Shown piece after piece: positions 2,756 to 64,000 of a DNA stretch of 64,000 bases. A program made the position numbers and the translations under genes. This stretch comes from Lytechinus variegatus. Taxonomy: Eukaryota; Echinodermata; Echinoidea; Temnopleuroida; Toxopneustidae. How positions within the stretch are numbered: position 1 is the stretch's first letter; the number at the start of each line of letters is the position of its first letter. The DNA lies in the NCBI RefSeq assembly GCF_018143015.1, contig NC_054743.1, forward strand, positions 36,335,243 to 36,399,242, written 5' to 3'. Under the pieces are notes generated by a model that did not search any database, was not told the DNA's origin, and was given only the letters and a program-made list of their open reading frames with translations.

Positions 2756-4315
2756 TTACAAATGTTCATCACCGAGTATATTCATACCGACGTTCTTGCT
2801 GAAGTCTAGCTCGGCATAGATAACCGAATCCGATTGTCGCGTCGCACTGCTCCCTGGCTCGGAGATATTCCGAGGGGAGGTAGATAAAGCACCCGACGGA
2901 CTTGACGACTTCTTCGAGTTCTTTTTTCTTGTGAATCTGTTTTTCCTCCCAACCGACGCATCGAGATTGTTAATACCGGAATGGTTTGTACCCTGTGACG
3001 TTCCGGGCTGTGACTGGTCTATTTGATTGTCGATTGATGTCGTAGACGTGCTGCGAGGAGTTATATTGTGATCAACACTCACCGGGGATGTTGATTTTGG
3101 TGCGTCCTTGCTTGAAGAGGCTGGTGACGAGACTGAAGGTGATGGTTCTCGTTGAGATTGCCCCGATCTGCTAGAGGGCGTGCGTTTTTTCTTCATTCTT
3201 CTTAGTTCAGAAGGTCGAAGCTTTTCGACATCGGATGGCTTCTTCGGCGCCACCGATTCCCTGTTGAGGTTCATGTTTTGACGTAAGGTGCTGTTGGGAG
3301 ATTTCTGAGCTATGGTTGAAGGACTGATAATGGACGATAAGAGATCTGGTTGGCTGTCACTCAGGGTGGGATTGTCAACACTATCCCCTCCGACAGCCTC
3401 ATCGGCATCGTCATCATCATCGTCATCATCTCGGATTATGGTTGTAAAGCCACGACCAGCTGCGATGGCCTCGGCATCAAGAACCATCTGGGGTTCCACT
3501 GGCTGTTCCTGACAAAAACGACACCGTCGATGTCGAAAGAGAATGAAGAGAACGATGACAAAGAGGAGGATAACCACGACACTAAGAATCCCGACGATGA
3601 TGAACGGAATCAGGGCCGTTGTTCCCGAGTTCGAATCGCTCTCGGGGTACGGACCGAGAGTGCACTGGTAGCGCTGGTCGACCCCTGGTAGGGAGGCATT
3701 ACAAGTGAAGGTGATAGAGGAGTCACTGGGTACTATTTCAAAGTGAGACACACTCACCATGGTGTCATCGCGTGTTATACTACTAGGGCCAATTGGGGCA
3801 CCATTACGTAACCACTGAAGCGAAGTCGACGACGACCCCGTAGACAAGCACCCAAGTTCGACACGATCACCTGCGAGCGTCCGCTCATTGTTCGGTGTCT
3901 TCTCGCACACGGGTATCCACGATGTTGGAAGCACAGTCAGCGTCGCGTTACGCGTTGACGCGGTTCCGTAAATGCAGCCGTAGAGCCCGCTGTCGCTTAA
4001 CCGCGTCGCGTTAATGAAGAGGTTATAATGACCGTCGTTGCGGTTACCGGCAATGAAAAAGCGGTTGTCTCGCGTGTTGTAGAGTTCTTCCTTGACCGGT
4101 GGATCGCCGGTGTAGCGGTGCCAGAAAACCGTCCTGGATACTATGTCCTCATCGAAGACACAGTCAAGTGTTACCGCTCGAGGAAAAACAACCGCTACGT
4201 CTGTTGGCTGGACAACAAATTGGCACGTCACGAGTGATACACCCCACCATGATAACAAGAACAATGCGAGATGAAACGATCTGCTATAGGCATCCATTGC
4301 GATGTATCTTTTCAT
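2756..4315 (-). CDS. Gene A: two-Ig-domain membrane receptor with a C-terminal ITIM-like motif
   Basis: This is a 519-residue intronless coding region. A hydrophobic leader covers about residues 14-31. Ig domain 1 (about 35-129) has C52, W65 and the D108xxxY112xC114 signature, and its RFFIAGNRNDGHYNL stretch resembles the first domain of Kirrel/NEPH proteins. Ig domain 2 (about 135-222) has C156, W168 and C205 plus an extra cysteine pair, C137 and C218. A transmembrane helix spans about 234-260 and is followed by RHRR, so the protein is type I. The 259-residue tail has an 8-Asp run (296-303), basic and Ser/Pro-rich stretches, and VIYAEL at 498-503. That fits the ITIM consensus (I/V/L/S)xYxx(L/I/V), a docking site for SH2 phosphatases. 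A role as an inhibitory or adhesion receptor is inference. The start could be M7 instead of M1, because a TATA-like run lies very close upstream. Genes B and C share the Ig design. Confidence 0.88.
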   Translation of the reverse strand: MKRYIAMDAYSRSFHLALFLLSWWGVSLVTCQFVVQPTDVAVVFPRAVTLDCVFDEDIVSRTVFWHRYTGDPPVKEELYNTRDNRFFIAGNRNDGHYNLFINATRLSDSGLYGCIYGTASTRNATLTVLPTSWIPVCEKTPNNERTLAGDRVELGCLSTGSSSTSLQWLRNGAPIGPSSITRDDTMVSVSHFEIVPSDSSITFTCNASLPGVDQRYQCTLGPYPESDSNSGTTALIPFIIVGILSVVVILLFVIVLFILFRHRRCRFCQEQPVEPQMVLDAEAIAAGRGFTTIIRDDDDDDDDADEAVGGDSVDNPTLSDSQPDLLSSIISPSTIAQKSPNSTLRQNMNLNRESVAPKKPSDVEKLRPSELRRMKKKRTPSSRSGQSQREPSPSVSSPASSSKDAPKSTSPVSVDHNITPRSTSTTSIDNQIDQSQPGTSQGTNHSGINNLDASVGRKNRFTRKKNSKKSSSPSGALSTSPRNISEPGSSATRQSDSVIYAELDFSKNVGMNILGDEHL

Positions 4316-4331
4316 AATCCCTGTCAGTCAC

Positions 4332-4339
4332 ATATATAT
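4332..4339 (-). promoter_or_regulatory. TATA-like box upstream of gene A
   Basis: A TATATATA run on the minus strand lies 17-24 bases before the first ATG of gene A. If it directs transcription about 30 bases downstream, the transcript would begin after that ATG, which would favour the second methionine (residue 7). This is positional evidence only. Confidence 0.3.
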
Positions 4340-4499
4340 TGCCAGTCGCATAAGATGTGGAACCGATGGAGGTCTAGCTGACGTTATCCTGTGACAACGG
4401 GCATGATGAGGCGTACCAGTGACTGAAACAACATGACAGAGAAAAGATGTATGATATAATGAGTATCAAAGATAAAGGAATCATTCAAATTGCCACCAT

Positions 4500-4950
4500 A
4501 ATCACCACAGTCATTAACATCGTGATAATCAGTAAGAGCAGCATCATTGGCATCACCACATCGTCATGATCATTATTTATTTTCATCACCAACTAACATC
4601 ATCATCAAAATCGGCATGTCGTCGTCATCACAATCTCATCACCATCATCATCATTGTCATCACCATTACCCCTCGTCACAATCATTCCCTATCACGATCA
4701 TTATTACCATTAGCACCACCGTCATCATCATCACCATCATCATCACCACCACTAACACCACCACAATTATCATCATCGCCATCATCCTAATTATCATCAC
4801 CATACCACCATCATCCTAATCAACATTTACACCATCACCATCGTAATCACCATCATCACCACCGTCACAAGCATCATCAGCATCATCATCGTCGTCGTCA
4901 TAACTATCACCATCAAAAAATTCATCATCTTCACTAGCATCATCACTATT
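4500..4950. repeat. (CAT/CAC)n-rich microsatellite
   Basis: Dense CAT, CAC and ATT triplets just upstream of gene A. The open frames with His/Ile/Ser runs across it are repeat artefacts. Confidence 0.9.
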
Positions 4951-7843: not shown

Positions 7844-8155
7844 GGCCCGTATTCTGAAGTCAGGATTAACTTAGACTCAGGTTTGAAGTTGTAGTTTAAG
7901 TATGGGAAGCCAAAAGTATCATTTTTTTTATTAAGTTGTACGTTTCTTATGTTTGACTGTGCTCTTTCCTGATTCATCGATGGTGAAGACAATAATCTAT
8001 ATATAATTCCTAGACAATTATAAATGATTTGAGAGCCAAATGGGCTGAAATTTGATATCTCTACTGTTAGTGATTTATGTGACAATTGGCTGTCCATACT
8101 TAAACCACAACTTTAAACCCGAGTTTAAGTTAAACCCGACTTCAGAATATATGCC
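7844..8155. mobile_element. Foldback MITE with GGCCCGTATTCTGAAGTC ends
   Basis: The left end GGCCCGTATTCTGAAGTC is mirrored by GACTTCAGAATATATGCC at the right. The trinucleotide ACA flanks both ends (7841-7843 and 8156-8158), compatible with a 3-bp target duplication as in Harbinger-type elements. There is no coding capacity; the minus-strand frame at 7837-8097 lies within it. A related element is at 13561. Confidence 0.7.
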
Positions 8156-9954: not shown

Positions 9955-10144
9955 CACTCTAAAAATTCGAATGTTAAATTAACATTTGAAAGGTTGAAGG
10001 AGTGACAACCTTTTCCAAATGTTACATCCAACCTTGTATAAAGCTGAATCCAACATTTTAAGTGTTGGGTGGAACCATTTAAAGTGGAAAATGCAACATT
10101 TAGAAAATGTTGTCACTCCTCCAACATTTTTTGGTTTTCGAGTG
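9955..10144. mobile_element. Short MITE built on AACATTT/AAATGTT words
   Basis: The ends are CACTCTAAAAATTCGAATG and, on the other strand, CACTCGAAAACC. The 190-bp interior carries repeated AACATTT and AAATGTT words in both orientations and two copies of a GTCACTCC-like motif. It resembles the TA-flanked MITEs at 2272 and 50041 in design, but no TA duplication is visible. Confidence 0.6.
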
Positions 10145-10683
10145 TGGCAACAACTGTTTGTAATTAATGTCTGAACAAAATGATGCCGTATTAAGATAGT
10201 GATATCCTTTTTATTTGATATACTATCCTACTCTCAATATTATGATCAAGAGAACTATTCATTACTAACATTGATTAGTAAATTGTCCTGTGAGGTGAAA
10301 TAAATGACTGGTCATAATTTATGGCAGATTTTGGCCAATCATTTAACTAGGATCCATGCTAATTGCTACCATTTATACCAATTTGATAATTACCTTCGCT
10401 TGAATTTCGGAACCGTGTGGGGCCTGTACTGCCCAGATAGTATTCCTCTTCTCTGACCAAAGTCATACAAGTTCTCCCTGCATGGGGTATAAGGAATACA
10501 ATGCCACTCTGCTTGATCGACACTGATTAAAAAGAAATTTCCTTCATCAAACATAGTAGACCGGCATACAATGCCCATTGTACGACAAGCAATAACTGTC
10601 CAGATTTACAGATCAAGTCTGTATAAATTGCATTCCTATATAGCAAATATAGGGTTTGATTCATGCATGGAATATTATGCATA
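10145..10683. other. Intergenic, nothing recognised
   Basis: No supported gene. Frames at 10390-10769 are short and overlap on opposite strands. Confidence 0.4.
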
Positions 10684-12003: not shown

Positions 12004-12041
12004 AAAATCCGGTTCCTGAAAAGAATCACAAAAAAATACCA

Positions 12042-17616: not shown

Positions 17617-19173
17617 TCATTCATCTTCGACGATTGGTATAGGTTTAGGCGGAGCTAGATCAAGAGGGGGCGGAGGGGGAGGAGATGGGGCCAGATTCAT
17701 GTCATCAGGTTTGAAGGATGATATCCTCTTTTCACCCATCAGATGCTCGTCCTCGATCATAGGAGGAAACCTGTCTTCAGCATCCGGTGACAGGTAACCA
17801 TCATTGACCTCGCCCGTCTCGTGGTCATTGAACCCGGTGGTGGTGGTGTCGGAGACGGGAGGGGGCGGGGGATACTCCGTGTAATCGTTCAAGGGCATAT
17901 CCGCGAAACTGTCGTCGTCGTTGTTGATGGGACGCAGGTCGGTGCCGTTTAGACCGTTGGGCTGGAACACGGATGCTGATCGAGATTCGCTGACGTCGTA
18001 CCCAGCAGCCTTGATGTCGCCGAGGTCGGGTCGGTCATCGGTTGGCTTTGGCTTGCAGCCGTTGCAGAAACAGTAGCAACAGCAGAGGGACAGCAGCAGC
18101 ACTATAAGACAAGCTATGATCATGAGAACCACCAGAAGCCAGATGGGGAGAACGGGAGTGAGTTCGATCTCGAGCGTCGTAGTCGTGGTCCCCATCGCAT
18201 TTGTGGCGGAGCAGTTGATGCTTTTGCCGACGTCGGAACGTTGGGAGATCCGAATGACGGCTTCAATGGCCCCTTCCTCCACGAGTGTTGTTTGAAGAAG
18301 TATGCTACGATCGGAAAAGGTGAGCTCGGGGACGTTGATGATTAAGCCGGGGTAAGCGGTAGCTGTGCACCTGATTGTAACGTTCTTAGTCTCAAGGTAG
18401 TGGACGTCGAGACGAGGACCGAAGTCGATGATGGGGAAGTGCCTTACGATGAGCTTTGTCGAGCCCGATGGGACAGTACATGTGGCATCTGAGTTCAGGC
18501 TCGGATGCGTGAGCGAACACGCCAACTGGGACTCGTGATCTGCCGCTGTCATCGTGTACGAGCTCGACGTCGCCGTTATTGACGGCGACGTGTCCACCTG
18601 CGTATCGAAATTCACATCAACAAGGGTTTGATCCGAGCGGAGCAAGCTCCATTTCAATTCCCCAAGAGGTCGACCCCCACTAGACCGACACCGGAAGTTT
18701 CCGAGCTCGTCTCCCTCATCAAACACGATCTCATTGGCAGTTGTATCTAGACATGACGGGACCCCTGGCGCCATGGCAGGATTGACGACGCTCAACGTCG
18801 CCCCCGCTTCGTAGTTCGATCCTCCACCTTGAGCATCGACCAGGCAATCGTACTGGAAAGCGTCATCGAGCGTGACGTTTTTAATCCTCAGGTTGTAGTA
18901 TCCGTTTGATGGGTTCCCGAATATCTCGTACTTCGGCAGGGCTTCGTTCCTGTTCACGTTTGGTCCTACCGCGATGGACCGGTCAACGATCCAGTAGACG
19001 ATGAGTCCCTGGCCTGTTCGCACCTTACAGTAGAAGACTGCATCTGTCCCTTCGGCGGCCTCGGTGTCCACAGGCCCCATCACAATCGGATTGATCTGCT
19101 GGAGACTGTGATGAACTAGACACAGCTCTATCAAAACCAGAATATAGCACAGTGATCCAAAGCGAGGCGCCAT
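17617..19173 (-). CDS. Gene B: three-Ig-domain membrane protein with proline-rich tail
   Basis: This is a 518-residue intronless coding region. A leader covers about residues 5-24. Ig domain 1 (about 29-130) has C49, W61 and C110. Its KYEIFGNPSNGYYNLRIKNV stretch closely resembles the V-type first domain of Kirrel/NEPH/nephrin-like adhesion proteins. Ig domain 2 (about 138-243) has C162, W175 and C219 plus the extra pair C141/C232. Ig domain 3 (about 248-338) has C269 and C321. The transmembrane helix (about 341-368) runs into CCCYCFCNGC, possible palmitoylation sites. The acidic 145-residue tail has two proline runs (435-439 and 498-503) that could bind SH3, WW or EVH1 domains. No ITIM is seen. 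The first ATG follows TAAA, a reasonable initiation context. An adhesion or recognition role is inferred from the family; orthology to a named gene cannot be claimed. Confidence 0.88.
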   Translation of the reverse strand: MAPRFGSLCYILVLIELCLVHHSLQQINPIVMGPVDTEAAEGTDAVFYCKVRTGQGLIVYWIVDRSIAVGPNVNRNEALPKYEIFGNPSNGYYNLRIKNVTLDDAFQYDCLVDAQGGGSNYEAGATLSVVNPAMAPGVPSCLDTTANEIVFDEGDELGNFRCRSSGGRPLGELKWSLLRSDQTLVDVNFDTQVDTSPSITATSSSYTMTAADHESQLACSLTHPSLNSDATCTVPSGSTKLIVRHFPIIDFGPRLDVHYLETKNVTIRCTATAYPGLIINVPELTFSDRSILLQTTLVEEGAIEAVIRISQRSDVGKSINCSATNAMGTTTTTLEIELTPVLPIWLLVVLMIIACLIVLLLSLCCCYCFCNGCKPKPTDDRPDLGDIKAAGYDVSESRSASVFQPNGLNGTDLRPINNDDDSFADMPLNDYTEYPPPPPVSDTTTTGFNDHETGEVNDGYLSPDAEDRFPPMIEDEHLMGEKRISSFKPDDMNLAPSPPPPPPLDLAPPKPIPIVEDE

Positions 19174-20201
19174 TTTAACTTTCCAACTTTCGCTATGTCG
19201 CCAAAACCAATACTAGTGCCACAGGTTCAAATAGCCTCTGAAGCTGATGCGGCTTCTAGAATTAATGGGTTATAAAGTATCACTAAAGACAGGCTTGTCT
19301 GTCGGTGTATACAAGCATTAGTCATTATCCATGGATGAATGCTTAATCAAATGCGATTTTAAAAACAAATGGGAGTCATTCTGTGTCTATGCAACTGCAG
19401 ATGATATACAAGTTGACTCCATAAGAAAAAAAAAGCAAGGTATTTTCTTTTTTTCTACTGTTTACTTAAGAATGAATAACCAAACACGTTCCCTCCTCTT
19501 TCATGTCTTTGCCCAAGAAAAAGCTCGCTCCATTGGAATGAGAGGCGGGTTAAAGAAAGGGGAAATAAAAGACACCGGGGTGCGGTCCTTGTCAAAAATC
19601 ACTCTTGCTCATCGAACTTTTGAATAAGAACATACCATTCGATATGAGGGGTGCATTCGAACTCTCTTCCGCTGAAGCAATAACTGAGCGCACCAGTGAC
19701 CAGGTTTTCCTCGATTTCTCAATCTATCTGCCATCTACCACTCTGCTAAATGCAAGACTTTATGCATCCATGCTACCGTCGTCCTTGGTATACTGGTCGA
19801 ATATTAAACTGACTTGTCAAGCGTAAAATTTCACATCTTCCGCCATCAAAGCCAATCGATATCCTTCCACTCGCTAAAGGCGAGGGAAGGGATCCTGAGT
19901 TAGGAATGGTTGCGTCTTTTCGTGACGAAATATCTATCTCTTCAAATTGACAAATGCATCTCGTGTGTGTACAGTGCGGCCAAGCAGAGGACAATCGAGG
20001 ATACAATGAAAAGAGGGTTTATAAGAAACAACTGCTGCTTTTTTTTCCCTTTACTCGGTAAGATAATGAATAAAAAGGATACACACCCATCATTAGTACA
20101 TGTCGGTATGTGGCATACAACGATTACTGCCAAACAACTTCCGCGTGTCAGGTAGTATAACAGTGTAAAACAAATCATGATAGACATATTTTCTAAATTA
20201 A
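19174..20201. other. Upstream region of gene B, no other gene recognised
   Basis: Should hold the gene B promoter and 5' UTR, but no TATA box or initiator could be assigned. The frames at 19331-20214 are short, overlap on both strands and lack motifs. Confidence 0.4.
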
Positions 20202-23220: not shown

Positions 23221-24218
23221 TTTTAAATCTAAGTAAACATTGGTCCATCCATTACTCAATACATTGTGTACCTCACAATATAGTTTTACACCAAGCCATT
23301 TATTGAATTTAGACTATAACATATTTTCATGAACATCATAAAATCGGATATAAAATTCAAGATATGCAGCCATAAGGTGCAAGCAAATAAAACACGCAAT
23401 GGGCTGCATGGAAACCTCGTAGTGAGTGGACTTTTACTCTTGATCAGTTCTGTCTGTAATACTGCCATCAGTGATATCGGCCCAGCACAAGTAGGAGTTA
23501 TACAAAAATCATTCAAAACGCGTCAATCATTCAAAAATTTCCATTAATTGTTGTTGACCAAGATAGACTCCGATAGATGGACAGCTGAATAATGTATAAA
23601 GGAAGCGTGGACAGGGGGCATACAACTATATGTAATGCTGATCGTCACCCGTTTGTATAGCCGAGTTACCCCCCCCCCCCTAAAAAAACAAAAAAAAAAA
23701 AAAATCAAACAGACAAACCAACAAACAAAACAAAACAAACAGATCGGTGGCAAAATTTTCCATGAAATGAACAACTAACATAAACCTTTTTACATAGATA
23801 TTATCGTGCAAGATACATCTAGAGGATTGCCTTGGAACGACTTTTATTACTGTTTGATACCAAAGGTTCAAACATTTACGACTCCATGTTACGTCTTGAA
23901 TCAGATAATAGACACAAAGGCAATTTTGGTGTATTAGGGCTGACGTGAATACTTTTCGGAAATGGAGGACTCACAGCTTCCGGTAATATTAATTAATTAC
24001 AGATTTGATTATTGATCTCTAGACAGAATTCTGTAAAATTACAATAATTTGACTATACATCTCTGTTATGATACATTCTGACATTGGTTTCATTCAAGAT
24101 TACACGATTTCATTTGACTGTGATGGTTATACTAGGTGGTTTTAAAAAAAAATATTTCAAAAGGTCCGAGGTCTCCTTTTCGACATTCTGTTTTTCTTTA
24201 TATACATTGTGATATCAG
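23221..24218. other. Upstream of the visible gene D exons, nothing assigned
   Basis: Earlier exons of gene D are expected upstream of 24219, but none could be fixed here. Opposing frames at 23286-23547 have somewhat protein-like composition, and I cannot connect them to gene D. A long A-rich run is at 23688-23705. Confidence 0.35.
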
Positions 24219-24711
24219 GTTTACATTCCCGATGCCGATTACAATGATTTGGAGGACGAAGTCGGCAGAGATACGTCATCGCATCTGGAAGAAGAAGTGT
24301 TCGCTAACCCGACCTACGAACTCGACGTCCAAACCGACAGAGTAGATCGAGATGAAGTGGAGAACGATGACGATGTGAACACCAATCATGTCAATGAACC
24401 CGTCGAAGTCAGTGACCACCAAGAAGAGGTAGCAGTCCTCGATGTCGTAGTCGTGGAACACAACGAGACATCGTCCGAGAGGTCTTCGGAGGTCGAACAT
24501 CGAGGGTACGATACGATGAATGGAGCCATCCCAACCATCCCTGCTCGACCGAACGGAATGGACGTCGAACGGGCGGGCGATTTCCCCACGACGAGGCACG
24601 ACCTCACTGCTGAAGGAAAACGGATACGCGAAAGAGAGCTAACAATTTGCATGTCTATGTTCGTCGTCACCATTATCCTGCTCGTCGTCAGCCTCGTTAT
24701 TTACTTTGCCG
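24219..24711 (+). CDS. Gene D, coding exon with NPTY motif and transmembrane helix
   Basis: This is an internal exon: acceptor ...GATATCAG before 24219, donor G|GTAAGT at 24712. It reads in phase 0 at its start and leaves one base of the last codon. An in-frame stop just upstream of the acceptor (24210-24212), and no ATG near the exon start, show that the protein begins in an earlier exon. The 164 codons are strongly acidic, with FANPTYEL around residues 28-35 (NPxY, a possible PTB-domain or endocytic motif). Then come basic residues KRIRER and a transmembrane helix at about 141-163. Positive charge before the helix suggests an N-in, C-out (type II or tail-anchored) protein. The family is not recognised. 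Confidence 0.65.
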
Positions 24712-25665
24712 GTAAGTCGATATCATAAGAGGGCATCAATCAGTCAATGAAGGAAATTTAATTCCACTTCCATGGTTTTCAATTCTTTATATTTTTTTTT
24801 TACATTTCCTTCCTTGTTACCATTAAGTTGGAGGAAAATTTCACGTAGGTTCTGTTACATGAAAAGCTCTTTTCAAACACTTTTAATATTTTTTACATTC
24901 ACGATAATCCGTTGTTTAGCCATGGTAAAGTACAAACTGGACAAGATAATTATGTAATAGATAGGGAATGAAAAAGATTAGTAAAAGGAAGGCTGCGTTT
25001 TTTGTGCCATTCTTTCTACTTGTTTTATTAACATATCTACCGAGAGATGGCGTGGTTGAGTATAGATTTCACGACTCGTGTGTTAAAATGGCATTGTTAA
25101 AGAAAAAGAAAATAATAAAAAAAAATAGAGGTTGAACTTTTTACTACCGGTGACTATGATATATATCTGGTACTCCATAATTGATCAATTAACAATAAAA
25201 GACATGAAGACATCTCCTGACGGGATCAAATTCATCACCTACAACAGTAAAACAGCCCCCAATTTATTATACCACCAGTAGAAGAGTCCCAATAGTTAAG
25301 TGATGTTTCTTCCTCATTTGGGAAAAAGAAGTTCAGTTGTTGCCCTTCATGATTATAGAATCAGTGTTACATAGCTAATCAAATGTTAAGGTTGGGTCGA
25401 ATCTTCTGCCTTCCTTTTGTAATTAGGCTCCGGAAGGGCCTGCATGTCCGTAAGAAAATAATCGATTATATATTTTTTGTTCTTGCCTGTCTGACCGTTT
25501 TGACAAATCTTGTTCTCTTTAATGCCCCATTCACACTGGCGAAACCGACTCCAGAATGACCAAATCTATTACGTTGTAACAAATGAAATACCATCATTCG
25601 GTTGGGAATAGTTTTTTTCTGTTCATTATAATTTTTATATCATCATCCTTTTATATTCGTTTTAG

Positions 25666-35177: not shown

Positions 35178-35542
35178 CACACACACACTCAGATGCACCC
35201 TCTCCCAACTCACACCACTTAACATGGACAACAACACAGACATGATAGATCAACTCAACAATGACAGTAAATATTATACAGTGGCAGAATGATTCGTCTT
35301 CGAAATCAAATGTTTGTCATGTCGATAGTCTACTCCTCTTAACAAAGTGGAGGTATCGTTGGAGATAAAGTCATTTCAAATCAAAGCCATGCAGTTCAGC
35401 TCATGTTGAGAATGTCGTGTACTACATTCAATTTCAGTGAGTAGGAGATGAACGTTATTTGAAATTAATTGTATTATATTTCTTATTTTGTCTACTTTTT
35501 TTCTTTCTTTCGTCGTTTTCTTTGTCATTCATTTTTATATTT
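35178..35542 (+). other. Leader region of the LINE at 35543-38993
   Basis: Lies between the end of the interrupted MITE and the first LINE ATG. Part of it is probably LINE 5' UTR, but the border could not be placed. Confidence 0.35.
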
Positions 35543-36118
35543 ATGGTCATTGTTTTTCCTTGCTATATATGTGAGAAACCTGTAAAGTGTAATCAAAAAG
35601 CGCTACTTTGTACAAAATGTTATCAATGGGTACATATTTCATGTGGTGATGTATCTTCTCAGCAATATGGTGATAAAACTGAACAATTTCACAATTGGCA
35701 ATGTCCTAAATGTCTTTTGCAAGAAATGCCGTTTTGGAATATTGAGGATATATTAATAGATAGAGATGCGAATTTGAACAATACAAATTCTGTTGATATA
35801 GACATTGACTCATGTACAAATACTTGTACCTCTATAAATGAATTTCCAAAGAGTAAAGGACTGAAAATTGCGCATTTGAATATTCGAAGTCTCAGAAATA
35901 AGGTGGATGATTTGCAATCATATTTGAAACAAAATCCGTACGAAATACTGACTATGTCAGAAACATGGCTAAGTGAAAACATTTGTAGTTCATTGTTACA
36001 AATTGATGGGTATCATTTTGAAAGAGTTGATAGAGATGAAAAGGGAGGAGGAGTTGGATGTTTTAAAAAAAGAATATATCATATATCAGACGACCTGATC
36101 TCGAAGACAGTGAGATAG
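35543..36118 (+). CDS. LINE ORF, N-terminal part: PHD-like finger and start of endonuclease
   Basis: The first ATG of this frame is at 35543. A cysteine/histidine cluster follows at once: CYIC, LLCTKC, WVHISC and CPKC, spaced like a C4HC3 PHD finger (roughly residues 6-55). After a linker comes the endonuclease start, GLKIAHLNIRSL, then SETWLS. The frame ends at a stop just after a shift into the frame used by the next segment; the reading DLEDSEIEIMWLEV continues across the junction in the other frame. The PHD-like finger in the same frame as the endonuclease is known from some CR1/Jockey-related elements. It probably aids RNA or chromatin binding. Confidence 0.85.
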   Translation: MVIVFPCYICEKPVKCNQKALLCTKCYQWVHISCGDVSSQQYGDKTEQFHNWQCPKCLLQEMPFWNIEDILIDRDANLNNTNSVDIDIDSCTNTCTSINEFPKSKGLKIAHLNIRSLRNKVDDLQSYLKQNPYEILTMSETWLSENICSSLLQIDGYHFERVDRDEKGGGVGCFKKRIYHISDDLISKTVR

Positions 36119-36123
36119 AAATT

Positions 36124-38673
36124 ATGTGGCTAGAAGTAAAACTGCATAATCACAAATCAAAGTATCTTGGAATTGTATATCGTCCACCTAACAGTGGTAG
36201 TGCATTTTTCAGTCACCTAGAAATTAATCTAGAGAAGATTTGTACGTTATCGAATGATATTGTGATATTAGGTGACTTAAATTGCAATATGCTAACTCAG
36301 AATAATCTTTCAAAGCAGATGAATGATCTGTGTGACAATATGAATTTGTCTCAGCTGATAAGGACCCCGACACGTGTAACCGTTAATAGTACTACCCTTA
36401 TTGATCTAATTCTTGTGTCAAATAATCTGAAATCACTGGAAAGTGGTACACAGTCTATCGGTTTAAGTGATCACTTATTGATTTACCTTGTATTGAAAGA
36501 AAAGCCACCGCCCTCTATATGTTCTGTGAGTACACACCGTTCATTTAGACACTTTAATGAAAATTCATTTATAAATGATGTTAAAAACATAAACTGGGAT
36601 GATTTATACTTGAATAATCAAAATGTTGAGAATATGTGGAGTATTTTCAAATGTAAATTCAAAGACATTTGTGATGTTCATGTGCCGTATGTTACTGTAA
36701 GAAAACGTTCTAGAGGATCACCTTGGATTACCAACGAATATCTATGTATTGCAAGAGATAGGAATTATTTTAAACGAAAATTTGATAAACACAGAACTAC
36801 AACCTACTGGGAAAAGTTTAAAGAATTCCGAAACAGAGCAAATGCATTGAACAAGAAGTTAAAAAAACAATATTATAAGAATCTTTGCATTGAAAATGGT
36901 AATGATATGAAAAAAACCTGGAAAGTACTCAAAAATTTACTCCCAAAGAAAGATGCCAATTCTGAATATAAAATTCTTGTAAATGACCAAATTGTAGTAG
37001 ATAAAGGAAAGGTTGCAGAATTATTTAATGAAAGTTTCAATAACATTCAGAGCCAATTAACGGGATCGAATGATTCTCATCTCAATATAAATGCATTGCA
37101 AACACTACCGCAAACGGAACATAAATTCGAATTTACAGAGGTCAAAGAAAGTTTTGTATTAAAAGAACTACTCAAGCTTGATGTTTCAAAAGCAGTTGGG
37201 ATTGATGATCTTCCTCCAAAGCTACTTAAAATAGCTGCCCCACATATTTCTAGAGTCCTTACAGTATTGTTCAATTGTTCATTGCTAGAAGGGTACGTTC
37301 CCCATGAATTCAAGGTTGCTAAAGTAACCCCTATTCATAAAGGTGGAGACAAAATGGAACTTACTAACTACCGACCTATCTCTGTTCTCCCCATAATTTC
37401 GAAGATATTTGAGAAGGCTGTACATAACCAGGTATATACTTACTTAAACAAACATTCTCTGTTAAGTGAACGCCAATCAGGGTTTAGACCCGGGCATTCA
37501 ACTTTAACATGCTTGACTGAAATAGTCGAAGGTATTCTAGATAACATGGATAAAGGTCTGGTCACTGGCGCCATTTTTCTTGATTTGAAAAAAGCGTTCG
37601 ACGTTATACCACATCGATTGATTATACAGAAAATGTTATTGTATGGTATTGGGGGAGTTGAACTAAAATGGTTCGAGTCTTATCTGTCCAATAGGCAACA
37701 ATGTGTATTCTTGCAAGGTACTAAGAGTAATTTTCTAACTGTGAAATCTGGAATTCCGCAAGGATCAATACTGGGGCCATTAATTTTTTGTCTCTTTGTA
37801 AATGATATTTGTAACTTGCAACTCCATTCTAAGACAAAGATTTCCTTATATGCAGATGACACAGCAGTGTTTCATCATGGAAGGGATTATAAAGTTTGTG
37901 AATGCAATTTACAGAAAGACTTTTCCAGTATAGTGAAATGGCTACAATATAATGGAATGTTTTTAAATGCAAATAAGACCAAAACTATACTCTTTGGTTC
38001 TAAAAGAAAAGCTCAAAATAATAATCTTTGTATTCACTACAATGATAATATACTGGAATCAGTTGAAAGTATGAAATATCTAGGTGTAACACTAGACAGA
38101 TGTCTAACATGGTCGCTTCATGTAAGGGAAGTTGTTAAGAAAGTATCGAGTACGATTGCCTGCATTCGACGGATACGTCATTATATTTCCCATAAGAATT
38201 TGATCACATTGTACTATTCTCTTATACTACCGCAACTAAACTATTGTAATTCAGTTTGGGGAAATACCTCAAAACAAAATCTAACAAAGCTGCAAAAATT
38301 ACAAAATAGATATGCACGGTTAGTTCTCCGTGCAGAATACTTTACACCCCAAAATATATTATTGATTAAATTGAAATGGCAGTCAGTAGAGGAAAGAATT
38401 AAATATCAGAAATGCATCTTGATTTTTAAAATCATTAACAACCTATCACCACCATATCTTAATTCATGTGTTAGTAAAAGACCGGTATTATATTCTACCC
38501 GCTATGCTCTAAGCAGTCCATTATTTATTCCAAAATGTAAAACAGACTTTAAAATGAAAACCTTGGCGGTTTCAGGGGCTAAGTTATATAATAAATTACC
38601 CTGTAATATTCAAAACTGTAAGTCTTTGCAAAGTTTCAAAAAGTATGTGCAAACTTTTCAGTTTCTCTTGTAA
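36124..38673 (+). CDS. LINE ORF, main part: endonuclease and reverse transcriptase
   Basis: The 849 codons begin mid-endonuclease (EIMWLEVKL is in frame upstream). Endonuclease motifs are YRPPNS, GDLNCN and SDHL. A connector with SPWITNEY precedes the reverse transcriptase. RT motifs seen are NYRPIS, FLDLKKAFDVIPH (motif A), SGIPQGSILGPL (motif B) and YADD at 37849-37860 (motif C, catalytic aspartates present). A thumb-like and C-terminal region follows (LTLYYSLILPQLNYC onward). The enzyme nicks target DNA and copies the element RNA at the nick. The RT half is uninterrupted. The ATG at 36124 is probably not the natural start, because the protein is expected to begin at 35543. Confidence 0.92.
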   Translation: MWLEVKLHNHKSKYLGIVYRPPNSGSAFFSHLEINLEKICTLSNDIVILGDLNCNMLTQNNLSKQMNDLCDNMNLSQLIRTPTRVTVNSTTLIDLILVSNNLKSLESGTQSIGLSDHLLIYLVLKEKPPPSICSVSTHRSFRHFNENSFINDVKNINWDDLYLNNQNVENMWSIFKCKFKDICDVHVPYVTVRKRSRGSPWITNEYLCIARDRNYFKRKFDKHRTTTYWEKFKEFRNRANALNKKLKKQYYKNLCIENGNDMKKTWKVLKNLLPKKDANSEYKILVNDQIVVDKGKVAELFNESFNNIQSQLTGSNDSHLNINALQTLPQTEHKFEFTEVKESFVLKELLKLDVSKAVGIDDLPPKLLKIAAPHISRVLTVLFNCSLLEGYVPHEFKVAKVTPIHKGGDKMELTNYRPISVLPIISKIFEKAVHNQVYTYLNKHSLLSERQSGFRPGHSTLTCLTEIVEGILDNMDKGLVTGAIFLDLKKAFDVIPHRLIIQKMLLYGIGGVELKWFESYLSNRQQCVFLQGTKSNFLTVKSGIPQGSILGPLIFCLFVNDICNLQLHSKTKISLYADDTAVFHHGRDYKVCECNLQKDFSSIVKWLQYNGMFLNANKTKTILFGSKRKAQNNNLCIHYNDNILESVESMKYLGVTLDRCLTWSLHVREVVKKVSSTIACIRRIRHYISHKNLITLYYSLILPQLNYCNSVWGNTSKQNLTKLQKLQNRYARLVLRAEYFTPQNILLIKLKWQSVEERIKYQKCILIFKIINNLSPPYLNSCVSKRPVLYSTRYALSSPLFIPKCKTDFKMKTLAVSGAKLYNKLPCNIQNCKSLQSFKKYVQTFQFLL

Positions 38674-41593: not shown

Positions 41594-43290
41594 TTTCAAT
41601 TCAGTATTTATTTCCAAATTCATTAAAAAAGAACAAAATGAGAACAAAAGTATATATACACAAAGAAAAAATAAATAACATGAAACAAAGCAAAGGTATC
41701 AACAAAACATAACTGAAACAAATAGTGGTAATGATAAAATTATGGTTGGCACATGATTATAAAAATATAGATGAACAAAATAATGAATGGAAATCGGGCA
41801 TGCACAAAAAGCCATAAAAAGGCTTGTTAAAACGCACATACCCACGAAATATCAATCGTTAAAAATAAAATTCAGTATATGGTATGGATGCGGCAAGTAC
41901 CAAAGAATAAATAGAGATAAGAATAGTCATTTCTTAAAAAGATAAATTAAACAAACTTTCAAACAAACTTCAATGTAAAACAAAACAGAACAAAAGATAA
42001 AAACAAAACAAAAAATATAAACAAACGGATAAACAATCAAATAAGCAAATAGTACAAAACCACGTTAAGAGAAATCAATAATTGCTCAGCAATTTCTTTT
42101 TATATTGTCTTTTAAAAGTATTATTAAATTGTATATTATATGTGTTCAGGTCTAAACTATTCCATAGTGTGGGGCCAGTATGTCGTATTGAATATTTAGA
42201 TTTATCATTTGAAAAGGTCCATCTGTGGAATTTGTTAAATGCTCTAGTAAAGTAATTGTGAATGTTTGCATTAATTGAGAACATATTCATTAAATAAGGT
42301 GAAAGACTTTTTGTGTGGTATCGTTGCATAATTGAAGCAATTTGAATTTTGGTAATATCTGGAAGTTTAGCTGTACGTAATGATTTAAATAGCAAAGAAG
42401 TCGGGGCATTATAATCTGTCTTCTTACATATACGTATTGCTTTTTTTGGAGAATAATTAATTTTTGTATATGGCTAGAATAAGTATTACACCAAATTGAA
42501 TTGCAATATGAAAGACGGGACAGAATATAAGCATTGTAAAGAGTAAATAATATATAACTAGGTACATTATATTTTAAACGATTTAAGATTCCAATAAAAC
42601 GTGCTATTTTGGCAGAGATAGAACTTATATGATCATTCCAACATAAATTATTGCTTAAAATCACTCCTAAAAACTTCACAGAATTATAAAATTGCAATTG
42701 AGTTTTATCCATATGGAGAAATATGTCAGTTTGATTATATTGCACACCCCTCTTTTTATTAAATAAAACACAATGAGTTTTGTTTGTATTTAAGGAAAGT
42801 CTATTGCACTTAAACCAGGCAGAAATTTGGGCAAGATTTCTATTTAAAATTTCAACTAAAGTAGTGATATTATCATGGGAGGCAAGAAGTGACGTATCAT
42901 CGGCATACAATATAAAATGTGGTTCATGGCAAGAGTTAACAATGTCATTAATATATATTAAAAATAATAAAGGCCCAAGAATAGAACCTTGGGGCACACC
43001 TGTTTTTATTTCCATGAAAGACGAATGGGTATTATTATAGACAGTAAATTGTTTCCTATGTGATAAATATGACTTGAACCAATTAAAAGACACCCCTCTA
43101 TAACTTTCTCCTTTGAATTTTCTTTCCATATCTACTTTTTTGGGTAATATTCCTGTTATTTTGTGCAATAAAAGATAGGTCTCTTTTATTGCACTGTTTG
43201 TTTGGTATTCTTACCCCTTTCCTTTCGAGGCTTTTATCAATTTCAAGCTTTAGCCTTATGATGGGGGTCTCCCACATTTCAAAATGCATT
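41594..43290 (-). mobile_element. 5'-truncated LINE on the minus strand
   Basis: The minus strand holds a 292-codon RT segment (42290-43168) with SFNWFKSYLSHRKQ, KTGVPQGSILGPLLFLIYIND, and LYADDTSLL around 42890-42910 (catalytic motif C present). A C-terminal piece at 42075-42395 follows in another frame and ends LLSNY. Endonuclease and RT motif A are absent, so the copy is cut at its 5' side near 43290. The 3' UTR ends near 41594 in a GAATTGAAATTGAAT tail, back-to-back with the 3' end of the 39090 LINE. Confidence 0.85.
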
Positions 43291-56800: not shown

Positions 56801-57391
56801 GTCTTTGTGAAGCGTGGACATCATATTTTTGAAAGGAATCACATCATTAAGGCGACGCTGGAATTAGTTTCTGGACAAAACATCTTGACGCCGCACGTCA
56901 TCATATCTCCGTTGTGTTGTTTTGCATTAGTTGGATACCAAGCAGTTCTATATCGCATTTCATGACAAAGCAGGAAGTTATAGAAGAAATATTGCACTTT
57001 TGATAATTTTGGGTAGGAACTGCACCCAAAATTTATAATTTCAGCCCATCCCCGCCATTTGATGTTTTTTAAAGATCTTAAACTACCATCTTAAGCAGTC
57101 GTATTATGTGTGAATCATATGGTGATCAATAAAGGCTACACACAGCAATAAACCTCTCGTCTCATTTACGGACTCAAGACGCTGTTTGCAACTCTCCCTC
57201 TAGAACCAAACACAAAGGATTTATTTGAGTTTTAAGGAGAAGTTTAAACTAACTAAATACCGCTCTGCTCGGGGGTGTTTACATTCGCTTGGAGAAGAAC
57301 CTTCTTCAGATTGTCCGTCCGTTGAAATAATCTTTCATATTGACACAAATTCTGTTTGGTAGATCGCCATAAACTTCTTGAATAGATATTA
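53806..57391. other. Region upstream of gene C, no other gene recognised
   Basis: Frames at 54020-54746, 55532-55751 and 56013-56618 are short, overlap on both strands and lack motifs. The 5' UTR or promoter of gene C should lie toward the right end, but no TATA box or clear acceptor was fixed. Confidence 0.4.
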
Positions 57392-57952
57392 ATGGGAAGT
57401 AAGCTTATGAAGAATAAAATGGCGGGCAAATATATATTGTTCATGTACTTCATTCTGATGTCATTGCTGTGCCTTTTCGGTTACGATAGTCCTTCGGCGC
57501 AGGCGGTAGGAAATCGGCAAGAAATCACCGTCGACCCGAAGGATACGAACGCCATACGCGGAGAGCTCGCGACGCTCTACTGCACCATCGCCAACCAAGT
57601 GGGGGTGCCATCGTGGTCAAAAGACGGCGAGATCATCGCCGTCAAGCCCATCGACGACACCGGCGACGCCGGCGAGCATCGATGGGCGATCTTCGGCAAC
57701 GAGTCGGCGGGCGAGTTCAACCTCCAGATCGTAGACGTGGATGACTCGGACGCCGGTGTCTACACGTGTAATATTTCCCAGTCGTCGTTGCCTAGTGGGT
57801 ACCTGTCGTCCCAGCCCGCAGCCCTTCACGTTCTCCCGCCGCCCGAAGGTGATTTCCCAGTGTGTCTCATCAGTATTGAAGGTACTTTAGACGTCGGGGA
57901 GGCTGTCGAGTTCACCTGTGCATATAAGACAGAAAGCACGCACCAAGTTCAG
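57392..57952 (+). CDS. Gene C: Ig-superfamily membrane protein, first coding exon
   Basis: 187 codons then a consensus donor, CAG|GTGAGT, in phase 0. A leader covers about residues 13-38; M1, M6 and M10 are all possible starts. Ig domain 1 (about 42-148) has C64, W75 and D118-x-D-A-G-V-Y124-T-C126, with WAIFGNESAGEFNLQIVDV matching the equivalent stretch of genes A and B and of Kirrel-like proteins. Ig domain 2 starts with C158 and C176 and is cut by the intron after Q187, then continues in the exon at 63735. The exon is much richer in GC than the DNA around it. The gene is on the strand opposite to A and B. An adhesion or recognition role is inferred from the domain type. Confidence 0.87.
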
Positions 57953-60039
57953 GTGAGTACTCCTGAAATAAAATGTCTTGTTTAGCACCGCAAAAAGGCA
58001 CTCACTGACAAAAGGAAGCGCAATTCTATGTGGATAATGAGTTTCTTTGTAAAAAAAAAGGAAGAAAATGTGTCAATGTTTATTGAAACGTTGTTTAGAG
58101 TATACCGGCGTCGTTACTTCTGAATTGTCTGTATTTCAGAAATGGGGGGGGGGGGTGGCTCCATTTTTCTTAGCAACATGTTGAATATCAAAAAAAATAT
58201 CCAAAGTCAGGAAAAAAATGATAAATATCATATTTGCTTCCTTTTGTCACGGGTCGGCAGAATAGCTCTCTCGCATTAAAAAAAACTTTTTTTATTCACA
58301 GGATGAATTGATTGTGGTATTTCAAAGTTAAGTTCATTATATATCAGAAAAAGTGTTTCAAATAGAAGAGATGCGTCTTTGACATTTAATGTAGAATATA
58401 TCATTTTGAGGAATTCAAAAAGAAATTTTCAGCTTGCTCACAAAAGCATCCCTAATTGACTAGGAAGTAAATGCCACTAAATGCTTAACACATACGTTTT
58501 GAAATAAATTTGTCTGATATGTTTTTTTTTTCATTTGTCACACTCGCGCTTCCTTTTATTGAAATATAAACAATCTAACAATCCATCATTCAAGTAAACA
58601 ACATTGATGCTATTTGCAAACGGACAGAAAGATCTGATACATGTAATATCGATACATTTAGGTATAGGTATCGATAAAGGTATTTCTGCATACAATCTCC
58701 ACCCAGTGCCATCTCCTTCATCAATGACATCTCTTCCATCAATGACATGTAACTAATATCAGTGATCTTTATGAGTTTCTTATTACAATTACGGACTCGA
58801 AAGAGAACAATACCCACGGCGCACTCTATTCATCCCATCGTATACAGGTATTGTGTCGAAAACTCCGCCATTGTCCGTTTGTATCGTTCATCCTACACTT
58901 CTCCGAGGTTTAATATAGTTCCTCTCTCATTTGAACGTGACAGTTGAAAGGGCAACCTTCAAAATCCACTCAAATATTCATTGAAGTACAAAATTAGTAT
59001 GTGGATAATGTTTGGTTGTTTTTGTTGTTTTTACAACGTACGGATATATTTTTCCACCAGACCGGCTGGCATGAACCTTGGCTCATTGGCGCAATGAGCT
59101 AAACATTTTTTTCAGGGGGGGGCAGGTATGACGGATAGAGTAAAAGTTCTAAAAACATAAAAACGAAGCGAGCAAGCTAAACAAATTGACCTTTTCAAGA
59201 CAAACATCTGATTCTGGCTTGATATTCAGAAAATAACATATATTTCCCTTTCCATTTCCCTTTTTTCCCTTTCTCCCTTTTTCTTCGTCGCGAAACTTTT
59301 TGTATGGGGGGCATGGCCCCCAAGCCCCCCCCCCCCCCTCTATCTGTAAGTCCACGCCTTAGCTTATATATCGGAGAGGCTTTACAATTGAAAAATGATT
59401 CGTACAGATATCAAAGTTTTTATTCTCAAATTACTGCCAATCAATAGATAATCAATATTTGCTAGATCAACATTACATGCAAGGCGGATCAGAATAATAT
59501 ATGTGTGATATATCACCTTGATATTTGTCCTAACAAGAATAAATTACATATTGTATTTTCATTATTTTCATTATTATTCTTGGCAAACACTAACGATAAT
59601 GTAATGCTTCATCACTACATAATGGAAAATACGTATTTGCATATAAGCATTTAAATATGTGATGGTCTATAGCTATTGAGACAATGTTTAATTTCTCATT
59701 TCTTTAACTTTGTGTTCGCTGAATTACTTTCGAAAGGATTTATATGAAATATGTTCTCGTTTTTCTTTAAATTTGAATTTTGTTTTATTTTCCATTTAAC
59801 CATAGATAATGGTCATCGTTTATAAACACGCTGAGTATTTTTTTTCTCTGGTATATAGGTGAACATGGTGAAGGGGAAAAACAAAATTATTAATTTTCTT
59901 TTCCCAACATATAAATTTGCAACATTTGTGTTTGTGCAAAAGGGTTGAATAGAAACATATAATCGAAAGTAAGGAATTTCGATCTTGATTATGATTATGC
60001 TAGTATTTTCATTACCATGCAATCTCATGATTATCATTG

Positions 60040-60539
60040 CAGGGGCGGCGGAGCGAAGTTGAAAGTGGGGAGGGGGCACAGGGAAAAAGGGCACCTTTTC
60101 TTTTGAAAGGGCACTATCTCAAAACAAAGAAAAAAAAAAATAATACTGATCCACAGTGGCGTAATGGGGAAAACAATTTCGGGTGAAAGGGGCACAGAAC
60201 ACGTTCGTGAGGGGCACCTTTCTTGGGTAAAAAGAGGCACCGATTCGAGAAAGGGCACTTACAAGAAGGCAAGGGGCACTTGCCCAGACACAAAACGGGT
60301 CCTTCTCAGGTGAAAGGGTAACAGAACACGATCGAGAGGGAGCATTTATGCTTTTAAAAATTGGCACTTATACGAGCAAGGGCACTTGATAACACCTAAA
60401 ACGTGTCCTCCTCAGGTTAAAGGGGCACATTACACAGACGTGAGGGGGCATTTTTCTTGGCGTAAAAAGGGCGCCTTTTCAGTGCTTCAAAAGTGGGTGG
60501 GCACTGTGCCCCCCGCCCCCTCTCGGATCGCCGCCCCTG
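60040..60539. mobile_element. hAT-like non-autonomous element
   Basis: CAGGGGCGGCGGAGCGA at the left is mirrored by TCGGATCGCCGCCCCTG at the right; CAGGG-type ends are common in hAT elements. The flanking 8-mers TATCATTG and TATGATTT match at 6 of 8 positions, as expected for an aged 8-bp duplication. The interior repeats GGGCAC and a longer GTCCTTCTCAGGTGAAAG / GTCCTCCTCAGGTTAAAG unit in tandem. Overlapping minus frames are artefacts. Confidence 0.7.
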
Positions 60540-62384
60540 TATGATTTATATTACATAAACATTATCACTTTATTGTTATAATTTATAATTATCATTATAA
60601 TTATCATTTTGCTTTTTATTGATAACTTAATTGTTTATCATTTATATTATTATCATCATCATCGTTTCATCATCATCATCACCATCATCAGCTTTATCGT
60701 TATTATTACTATATATTCTAATCATAATCATTTCAATATGCCTTTGCAGCAGAAAAAAAGGCATGGAGGGGTATTTAACCTTACTTTACACAATAGTCTG
60801 GTAATCATGACCATCACTATGTATCGCGGAGCAAATACAGAACGCAGATTTTAGAAAAAGACTCGGACGTCGATAACACTCAAGATTATTATCTATATAC
60901 TCAGTCAGTATCAGGGTGGTTGAAAAGAAATTAGCCAGAGGTATATAGGATATAGGCCTATAGGCTGTTACCGAAAATGAGATATATTATATTCCAGACC
61001 CAGGGCGCGAGTTCTCTAGTGCAAAAATTAATTAGATGGGGTGTAGAAGATCCCAAGGGCCTTTTAAATTTCATTTAGAGATTTGAAAGGAAAGACAACG
61101 AATATAATTATTAAAGGCAATATCGCAGTCACTGTGAGTAGACCCAGTCCTCATAATTATAGTCCTGAAGTATTTACACTCACCAGAGTTCCTTTAGAAT
61201 GCAATATTTTGATCATAACACCAGGGGCAACGTACGTCAGGGTATTCTGACTTCGCCCCCCCCCCCGCGCCCTTGTCCTAAAAGAGTGCATATCCTAGAG
61301 GTTCTTTAAACAAATTTTCATAACCATGAGTTCACTGACATTGCTGGTATCATGCGGTCTCAATTTTTTGTCACATACCTGCCTTTCTTACTATCCTAGA
61401 TTTTGATAGATAATGTGAAAATGCCCCTTACACATTTCACATTTCCATGAATTCTATAGGCGAATGTTTAAAAACGAGTTGAAAATTATTTTCAAAAAAT
61501 TAATTAATAGCGCTTGTTCAAAGTGAGCTCTCGGGAATAAAGTGGAAAATCTTTGGAACCCGGCCCTGCCGGATATTTTTAATCAAAAATTTTCACATAA
61601 GTCCTCCCGGAGAGTTGTACAAAAGATCCTCCATATTTCAATCTAAATGCATAAAGACCAACAACTGTGAAGTGATAAGCTCGGACGCTTCGTTCCCTTG
61701 CTTACAGTTATGTTTTTAAACATGTTATCCTTCACCCTTTGAATGAAACACGCCGATGAACACACATGCAAAGCTGTATACGATAATTGTCGGCTTTTGG
61801 TGCCATTTCAAAGTGGGCAAACGGCGATGAGAGTACAGCAGCATCAAGGACATCGGTTTTGCCTGGAGAGCCCACTTTTTACATACGTGTGATAGCAATG
61901 ACCATGAACGGTCTAATTTTTCGTCTAGAAAGATAATTGAGTGAAAATAGAGTGTATTAATTAAGAAGGTTAATAATAAAATGCTATCCACGAGAGTGAC
62001 CTATGGCCATCATATACCGAAGCCCAGATATCCCGATTTTTCAACACTCATATATGATTTGACTAGTACAGCGATCAACCTGTATTACTTGTCTATACTA
62101 AACTATTGTTAAAACAATAAAATAACATTAATAAGTTTGATATGCTTGAGAATATTATACGGTAGGAAAGAATGATATTACACTCTAAACTCCCCAGGAT
62201 TTAAAATGAACCAAGATCGGCTGTGCATAGTAACCAATCCGAATATTGGATTAAGATTTAAACCATTATGATTAAAACAGAAAGCTAAAAGTTTTGAATT
62301 TTAATCATTTGAGATTTAAAAGTTAATCTTACACATTAAAGATAAATAAAAAAAATTGGCTGGTCACCATTCACAGCCGATCAG

Positions 62385-62556
62385 GTGGATGTTTCATAAA
62401 GCTGTTCGTAAGTTAAGAGCGACTTTAAGAACGACTGGTGATCCTTTCTTGTGGTAAATGGTATATTATTGGCGATGGTTTAGCGCATAAGAAAGGTTCA
62501 CCAGTCGTTCTTGAAGTCGCTCTTATCTTACGAACAGCTTTATGAAACGGCTCCCT
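62385..62556. mobile_element. Foldback MITE with GTTTCATAAAGCTGTTCGTA ends
   Basis: GTTTCATAAAGCTGTTCGTA on the left is an inverted copy of TACGAACAGCTTTATGAAAC on the right. The stem continues through AAGAGCGACTT and GAACGACTGGTGA, about 65 bases per arm. It is non-coding and lies in the gene C intron. Confidence 0.85.
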
Positions 62557-62623
62557 GGATTTATATTAAATCCTTAGAATATCCATTTGTTTCTGCACGC
62601 AGTTGTCCTAATACAAACAGATG

Positions 62624-62795
62624 TGTGTTGGCTCAGTTAGTAGATCGTCCATCTCACAGCGGGAGGTCGGGGGTTCGAGTCCCGGTCGCGTCACCAAAAA
62701 GACGTTAAAAGATGGGAGTTGCTGCTTCCCTGTTTGACGTTCAACAATCAGGGATAGAGCACAGTGGTCGCCGGGCCAACGATTAATTGGAAGAA
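62624..62795 (+). mobile_element. tRNA-derived SINE
   Basis: A tRNA-like head has A box TGGCTCAGTTAG (62629-62640) and a perfect B box GGTTCGAGTCC (62672-62682), ending TCACCA. An unrelated body follows, with GTTGCTGCTTCCCTGTTTGA and its mirrored AACAATCAGGG. The acceptor stem pairs poorly, so it is not a working tRNA gene. The boxes form an internal RNA polymerase III promoter. The 3' end was not fixed. Confidence 0.75.
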
Positions 62796-63734
62796 AAAAA
62801 TTCGGAGTATTTTTTTTATTTCAGATTTCATTTCGAACAATGAAACATGGATTTCATTTTTTTTGCAGATAATAGATTCAATAGTTTTCTCTGAGAATAT
62901 ATAGAAAATACGAGAAGTGTTCTTCTACGACGGGGCTGTAGAAATTGACAATTTCATTTCATTCTTTGGATTTGGATCCTAGTTAATTCCTACAAAGAAA
63001 CCTTAGAATGCCCCACTTCAGGTCTGAATCTTCTGAATTTTTAGCTCGCGCTCGCAATATTTGATTATTGAGATGCGTATGATAATCATCATTGCAATGA
63101 CTACAAAAAGTGTTCCATGTGTTCAGATGTAATGCTAATAAAATCAGCAAGCGCTTGGCACTCGCATTAGATGACTATGGTGAAATATGCATACTCTTAA
63201 TGGATTCCTAAAATATATTCCTTAAAATCTCACTGTTTGGGGCCAAAATATACGAACACTTTAACTCGCGCTTCGCGCTCGCATTGTTTAGAGAGACAGG
63301 TACCTATCATGATTACGCAAATTTGATTATAATGTCCCTTTTAGGTATGAATTTCATATGAAATTGTCCTTAAATGTCTCTATTAGGTCAGTACAACTGG
63401 CAACTGAGCGCGCACACTCAGTGATTAAAGAATTTTACTGGTGCCCCCCCCCCATGCCGTGACACACGGTACGCCTCTGTGGACATATCAATGACAATTC
63501 CTTGCATATCTAAAAACATGATTGCAAAAAAATGCCAAAATATTTCAGTCATCCCCCCACCCATCAACACGGATTCACGCCAGTGATACATACGTCTCCG
63601 AGATAAAGAATGTTATAGATGCTTTCCATATTTGAGAATGACTGAGTCGACCACAACTTTTTGTATGACGACCTCCAGCTCTGTTGCATATTAGATAACG
63701 TTTATGTTTTTTCCTGTATGATTATTCATTTCAG

Positions 63735-64000
63735 CTCTATTGGACAAAACAAGACGACGCTGCTTTCGAGCCTACAAGCCCAGAAACACACATCCGTGAT
63801 GGTTTTATTGTCACTCAATTCTACCACAGCATCACACGAGATGATCATCTCTCGACCTTCCAATGCATCGCCGATAGCTCTGATCTCCCGTCCGCTCGCT
63901 CCTGCACGACGGGCTTCATCGTCGTTCGTCACGCCCCCGACGTGATGATAACGCCCGCAGCGCCGTCGGTACGCCGCGGTGACAGCGTCAACTTTACCTG
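63735..64000 (+). CDS. Gene C, second coding exon (runs off the window)
   Basis: The acceptor TTTCAG ends at 63734. In phase 0 the exon reads LYWTKQDDAAFEP, giving W190 of Ig domain 2, then DDHLSTFQC with C231 and the extra cysteine C244 (SARSCTTGF). Ig domain 3 starts at RHAPDVMITPAAPSVRRGDS and reaches VNFT plus two bases of what should be its first cysteine codon. The open frame of 88 codons spans the whole exon. The protein therefore has at least three Ig domains; transmembrane and cytoplasmic parts lie beyond the window. Confidence 0.85.

Follow-up and report, generated by a model that had tools for sequence, protein, structure and literature searches.

A 64,000-nucleotide stretch of the genome of the sea urchin Lytechinus variegatus (NC_054743.1, forward-strand positions 36,335,243 to 36,399,242; in our numbering G000:C4:36335243-36399242, hereafter the window) contains three genes, A, B and C, that encode transmembrane (TM) receptors with immunoglobulin (Ig) domains. 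All three are members of a large, mostly single-exon family spread over nine contigs, chiefly two, in which the second Ig domain (Ig2) carries a near-invariant extra pair of cysteines and the cytoplasmic tails are enriched in tyrosine motifs. The explanation that we favour, and regard as reasonably probable, is that A, B and C are kirrelL-type adhesion or signalling receptors in which Ig2 would be a doubly bridged, CAR-like C2 domain, with tails of the immunoreceptor tyrosine-based inhibitory motif (ITIM) type in many members. A preliminary description, made from the letters of the window, had proposed a local family with a common ectodomain plan and different outputs, possibly an undescribed cluster of recognition receptors. 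A search of the genome (869,567,369 bases in 33 contigs) supported the homology of the three genes and their common ectodomain plan.

Counted from the first methionine, the Ig2 cysteines fall at positions 137, 156, 205 and 218 in A, at 141, 162, 219 and 232 in B, and at 158, 176, 231 and 244 in C, comprising in each case the canonical pair, one cysteine before the domain and one 13 residues past the F-strand cysteine. This confirms the added pair that had been described around Ig2, and the residues C218, C232 and C244 occupy the same position in the three proteins. In an alignment of 15 single-exon members that included A and B (alignment A1), all four Ig2 cysteines and the Ig1 cysteine pair were invariant (15/15). 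The wider set comprised 35 rows, of which one is an exon with Ig2 alone and two are close paralogues of each other; Ig2 was alignable in 34 of the 35. Both extra cysteines were kept in 33 of the 34 (32 by alignment, plus L082, whose second cysteine was placed by eye); the single exception, L068, has neither, while L076, unaligned over Ig2, is cysteine-rich there. Across 32 family rows the extra cysteines stand 16-24 residues before the B-strand cysteine (18 in 12 rows) and 10-17 after the F-strand cysteine (13 in 17 rows). A locus at 33.18 Mb on contig C8 has V exons next to an Ig2 exon with the same four cysteines. Six C2-set_2 exons belonging to other Ig genes of C8, taken from 150 C2-set exons (four from an array at 26.1-27.7 Mb, two from elsewhere on the contig), served as controls: 0/6 had the front cysteine, and 5/6 had a cysteine near the exon end. 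Most likely, judging from these positions, the extra cysteines form a second bridge that links strands A and G in addition to the usual B-F bridge.

Searching the genome with the family consensus produced 258 candidates, of which 150 were scored, and at least 84 matched at an E-value of 0.01 or below. At least 73 of these lie in open frames of 300 amino acids (aa) or more; gene C falls outside the 73, its exon 1 frame being 199 aa. When near-identical pairs were merged, 54 loci remained, 28 on C4 (the contig of the window), 12 on C5 and the rest on C2, C3, C6, C10, C11, C13 and C14, and 44 merged loci were counted at E up to 1e-3. Merging left at least three likely pairs separate (C6 at 41.6/43.3, C4 at 22.5/25.1 and C4 at 27.2/43.9 Mb), making about 50 and 41 the fairer counts; the counts of the search are lower bounds, and the weakest matches may be other Ig genes. 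Gene C aside, 26 long frames were sampled, and 24 of these contained a TM segment in the same frame; L066 and L069 did not. The proposal that the family is local did not hold, since nine contigs carry the same plan, at about 50 loci after merging. A check of the flanks did reveal three further members close by on the same contig, at 36.232, 36.332 and 36.573 Mb, and a profile scan of the window itself found no fourth member. The genome also contains a match to Bindin (PF02084, E 4e-66), seen in none of 14 control genomes; bindin is not known outside sea urchins, and its presence marks the genome as that of an echinoid.

Our tree covered 201 columns and 32 of the 35 rows, the three rows left out being L068, L076 and the Ig2 exon of C8. 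Outside the family set were L074 (an Ig1 match only), L023 (by eye another multi-Ig gene, with a weak match), the V-domain exons of C8 and C15, and the second copies of pairs. With bootstrap support not settled, 17 of 29 inner branches stayed open; B and C joined at 82/76, A fell elsewhere, unplaced, and a single clade of A, B and C was not rejected (approximately unbiased test, p-AU 0.231). The three genes are not shown to be one another's closest kin. Averaged over 496 pairs for each domain, Ig1 sequences were 24% identical and Ig2 sequences 22%. The Ig1 block GN...G.(Y/F)NL, to which the preliminary description had drawn attention as shared by A, B and C, is real but not peculiar to them, being the V-domain consensus of the whole family: in the 34 rows aligned there (all except the Ig2-only exon), profile positions 64, 65 and 69 hold G in 18 rows, N in 16 and G in 20, respectively, while position 71 holds Y or F in 31 and position 73 holds L in 30.

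Cytoplasmic tails were scanned in 25 members (L066 and L069, with no TM in frame, were left out) and compared with 500 shuffles of the tails. The ITIM pattern [SIVLT]xYxx[IVL] occurred at 26 sites in 16 tails, against a shuffled mean of 8.1 sites; the pattern without T in front occurred at 23 sites in 14 tails (6.6 shuffled), and YAx[LIVM] at 16 sites in 12 tails (2.0 shuffled). None of the 500 shuffles reached the count of any of the three. Sites of PxxP were likewise enriched (67 versus 46.6), but the number of tails with PxxP was not (19 versus 16.7; 83 of 500 shuffles). The scan recovered the ITIM reported earlier for A (VIYAEL) and the proline-rich tail reported for B, which has seven PxxP sites and neither ITIM nor YAx[LIVM]. 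Gene C has PIYAQV and SPYQPV; its match to the ITIM pattern is SPYQPV, PIYAQV failing at the first position. The tails had been said to differ entirely and indeed do not align, but A and C, through VIYAEL and PIYAQV, have a YAx[LV] motif common in the family, which B is without. Tyrosine motifs so common to family tails weaken the suggestion of different outputs. In having an Ig ectodomain, one TM segment and a YAxL/ITIM tail, such members resemble SIRP, LAIR and LILR, vertebrate inhibitory Ig receptors with YAxL-type ITIMs, whose sequence likeness to the window family is of the generic Ig kind.

Among the long-frame receptor loci, match statistics identified 19 near-identical pairs (on C2, C4, C5, C6, C10 and C14), of which 18 are 0.48-4.4 Mb apart and one, on C10, 7 kb; some are inverted. 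These are probably unmerged haplotypes or recent duplicates, their spacing and orientation suggesting haplotypes kept unmerged in the assembly. Seven of the pairs were compared and six pooled, all of them other members; none of the three window genes has a second copy. The pool contained 73 synonymous and 13 nonsynonymous changes, a pN/pS (ratio of nonsynonymous to synonymous change per site) of 0.054. By region the ratio was 0.032 in Ig1 (1 nonsynonymous versus 9 synonymous), 0.124 in Ig2, 0.061 in Ig3 plus stalk, 0 in the TM segment and 0.021 in the tail. This strong purifying selection speaks for conserved function, and not for a diversifying Ig1, in the compared relatives, and the idea of a recognition cluster with polymorphic Ig1 found no support.

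The same values bear on whether the family might be a germline set of immune or allorecognition receptors, in which Ig1 diversifies for foreign or non-self cells and ITIM members act as inhibitory partners. The size of the family, the strong divergence between its members in both Ig1 and Ig2, and the presence side by side on C4 of members with and without an ITIM all favour such a set. We nevertheless think it unlikely, as low pN/pS in the six pairs, in Ig1 and tail alike, argues against diversifying recognition, and the end branches of the tree are long (median 1.5). A second alternative, that these are true members of the CAR/CTX family (CAR, CLMP, ESAM, BT-IgSF), expanded and with introns lost, draws on the same order of a V-type and then a C2-type domain with four C2 cysteines at the A, B, F and G positions, a likeness of positions only. 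The spacing in CAR D2 (16 residues before the B-strand cysteine and 11 after the F-strand cysteine, from PDB chains) lies within the ranges seen in our family, and CLMP, of the CAR family, is described as having four C2 cysteines with bridges A-G and B-F (PMC10056934). Aligning the Ig2 profile with a single CAR D2 sequence by hhalign, however, gave 18.7% probability at E 0.0013 with both extra cysteines unaligned, and no CAR-family protein was among the best 60 of 249 PDB matches. Class I PDZ ends, the one class scanned, occurred in 4 of 25 members and in none of A (DEHL), B (VEDE) and C (MDQL). The window family, moreover, usually has a third Ig domain and in many members an ITIM-type tail, and its genes are mostly single-exon whereas CLMP has 7 exons (PMC10056934). 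On the weak hhalign result, the PDB matches and the C-terminal ends of A, B and C, we set CAR/CTX membership aside as improbable. Ig2 may still work like a CAR-type C2 stalk without belonging to that family.

The comparison with kirrelL, on which our favoured explanation draws, is one of description and not of sequence. According to an abstract by Ettensohn and Dey from 2017, KirrelL has related genes that are likewise intronless, and the family that they form has expanded in echinoids. Skeletogenic cells of sea urchins need this TM protein, which has Ig domains, in order to fuse, and its gene is intronless in all echinoderms examined, retrotransposition having been raised as a possible origin (PMC8903837); the accessible part of PMC5859501 adds nothing about KirrelL sequence. 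An echinoderm, TM, Ig-domain product from an intronless gene is the point of likeness (PMC8903837); A and B are single-exon Ig TM genes, while gene C differs in having one intron. The window family is probably the one to which kirrelL belongs. The family is real and not local, and it has probably been touched on in print already, as kirrelL relatives; with an intronless echinoderm Ig-receptor gene published (PMC8903837), the earlier term "undescribed" becomes doubtful. Open-licence titles and abstract openings named neither additional Ig2 cysteines nor YAxL tails for an urchin family of this kind, and kirrelL was the sole close lead there. Two profile searches of the PDB reached the Ig superfamily at large and picked out no single family: SYG-2 and Roughest were among the matches of both and Kirrel1 among those of the first, all of a generic Ig kind. 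To our knowledge, the Kirre/Roughest/SYG family is not known to have an additional pair of cysteines in Ig2.

Several observations count against kirrelL-type receptors with a doubly bridged Ig2 and ITIM-type tails. Members were found by similarity to cysteine-containing profiles, a sample that favours members retaining the cysteines, and the plan is not universal: L074, a single-frame relative, has an Ig1 match and no Ig2 match. The joint loss of both cysteines in L068 fits a bonded pair, but this is one case, and weak evidence because L068 may be truncated; the first half of its Ig1 was not found by eye within 1.1 kb upstream, and the region of its near-identical partner L046, from which it differs by 8 synonymous and 2 nonsynonymous changes, contains stops. 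The possible truncation of L068 and the missing Ig2 match of L074 make us slightly less sure of our explanation. AlphaFold2, run without an alignment (a MAFFT alignment of A, B and C alone misaligned Ig2 and was left aside for folding), returned unusable models of the A and B ectodomains, with mean pLDDT (predicted local distance difference test) of 31 and 39, in which no cysteine pairing was seen. In the tails, an ITIM is missing from B and from 9/25 members in all, and YxN showed no enrichment among the 25 tails, 161 of 500 shuffles reaching the observed count. The leader had a pN/pS of 0.44 (3 nonsynonymous, 2 synonymous) in the six pairs, and all these ratios come from other members and from small counts per region.

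The layout of the three genes and of other elements of the window is given in the table. Above the Pfam cut-offs, gene A matched Ig_3, Ig_2, I-set, ig and V-set, and gene B matched C2-set_2, Ig_3 and I-set; gene A has two Ig domains, and its TM segment and tail were placed by hydropathy. Exon 2 of gene C was matched at 63699-63998 (E 2.1e-4) in the family profile scan of the window and runs beyond the window to about window coordinate 64883, taking in Ig3 (by eye), the TM segment and the tail with PIYAQV. The two-exon model of gene C relies on a consensus donor and acceptor and on an in-frame join, which restores the Ig2 tryptophan and predicts a protein of 569 aa from the first methionine. 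The single 5.8-kb intron (window 57953-63734) falls within Ig2, after the B-strand cysteine and before the C-strand tryptophan, and has no counterpart in A or B. Since the Ig2 exon at 33.18 Mb on C8 is uninterrupted at that place, gene C looks as if it was once intronless and acquired its intron later.

Table. Features of the window, in window coordinates
Feature	Position	Strand	Description or basis
Gene A, single-exon receptor	2756..4315	-	Open frame 2756-4327; 519 aa; coordinates checked; signal-peptide-like start (by eye), V-like Ig1, Ig2 with extra cysteine pair, TM, 261-aa tail
Gene A ITIM-like motif VIYAEL	2807..2824	-	Motif scan
Gene A Ig2, extra Cys137 to extra Cys218	3662..3907	-	Cysteine positions, invariant columns
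Gene B, single-exon receptor	17617..19173	-	Open frame 17617-19212; 518 aa; signal-peptide-like start (by eye), three Ig domains (third by eye), TM, 154-aa tail
Gene B Ig2, extra Cys141 to extra Cys232	18478..18753	-	Cysteine positions, invariant columns
Open frame	24213-24728		171 aa, acidic; hydrophobic end like a C-terminal membrane anchor
Inverted repeat	33255-34765		263-nt arms, 95% complementarity, 985 nt between; arms of 16/26/42-nt subrepeats
Non-LTR (long terminal repeat) retrotransposon frames	35441-38673	+	Two overlapping frames: PHD finger, endonuclease, reverse transcriptase
Non-LTR reverse-transcriptase piece	42290-43210	-	
Gene C exon 1	57392..57952	+	Signal-peptide-like start, Ig1, first Ig2 half (Cys158, Cys176); donor CAG/GTGAGT at 57952
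Gene C exon 2, in-window part	63735..64000	+	Second Ig2 half (Cys231, Cys244), Ig3 start; acceptor TTTCAG

Among the remaining elements of the window, the inverted repeat looks like a DNA-transposon-type element. The acidic open frame gave no Pfam match and no second genome match at E 0.001, and may be the final exon of some unrelated gene. Outside the window, 150 of 562 candidate C2-set_2 matches were scored, and about 141 of those 150 lie, together with many V-set matches, at 26.1-27.7 Mb on C8, on one strand and a few kilobases apart; this interval is an extensive multi-exon Ig gene array and is distinct from the window family.

As an adhesion or signalling receptor of the kirrelL type, a typical member would present a distal V-like Ig1, then an Ig2 with a putative second bridge and, in most cases, an Ig3; a single TM helix would be followed by a tail often bearing tyrosine motifs. 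On whichever cells would use these receptors, Ig1 would bind a partner on a neighbouring cell, held out by the doubly bridged Ig2 as a stiff stalk. Contact would lead to phosphorylation of the YAxL/ITIM tyrosines in members such as A, and the phosphotyrosines would recruit SH2 proteins, for which SHP-type phosphatases are the obvious candidates; members such as B would use their proline-rich tails instead. Taken as a whole, the family looks like a conserved adhesion and signalling set more than a fast-changing recognition cluster. A bolder proposal, tentative and in our judgement somewhat doubtful, is that the approximately 50 mostly single-exon receptors make up a germline code that joins a CAR-like doubly bridged C2 stalk to YAxL/ITIM tails, an echinoid counterpart of the vertebrate inhibitory Ig receptors serving developmental cell-cell recognition (fusion, sorting) and not variable immune recognition. 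If KirrelL does belong to the family, sea urchins would have about 50 paralogous adhesion and signalling receptors, and the specificity of contact and fusion would become testable gene by gene. V-C2 receptors with an additional bridge like that of CAR would gain another example as well, one in which the tails are of the inhibitory type.

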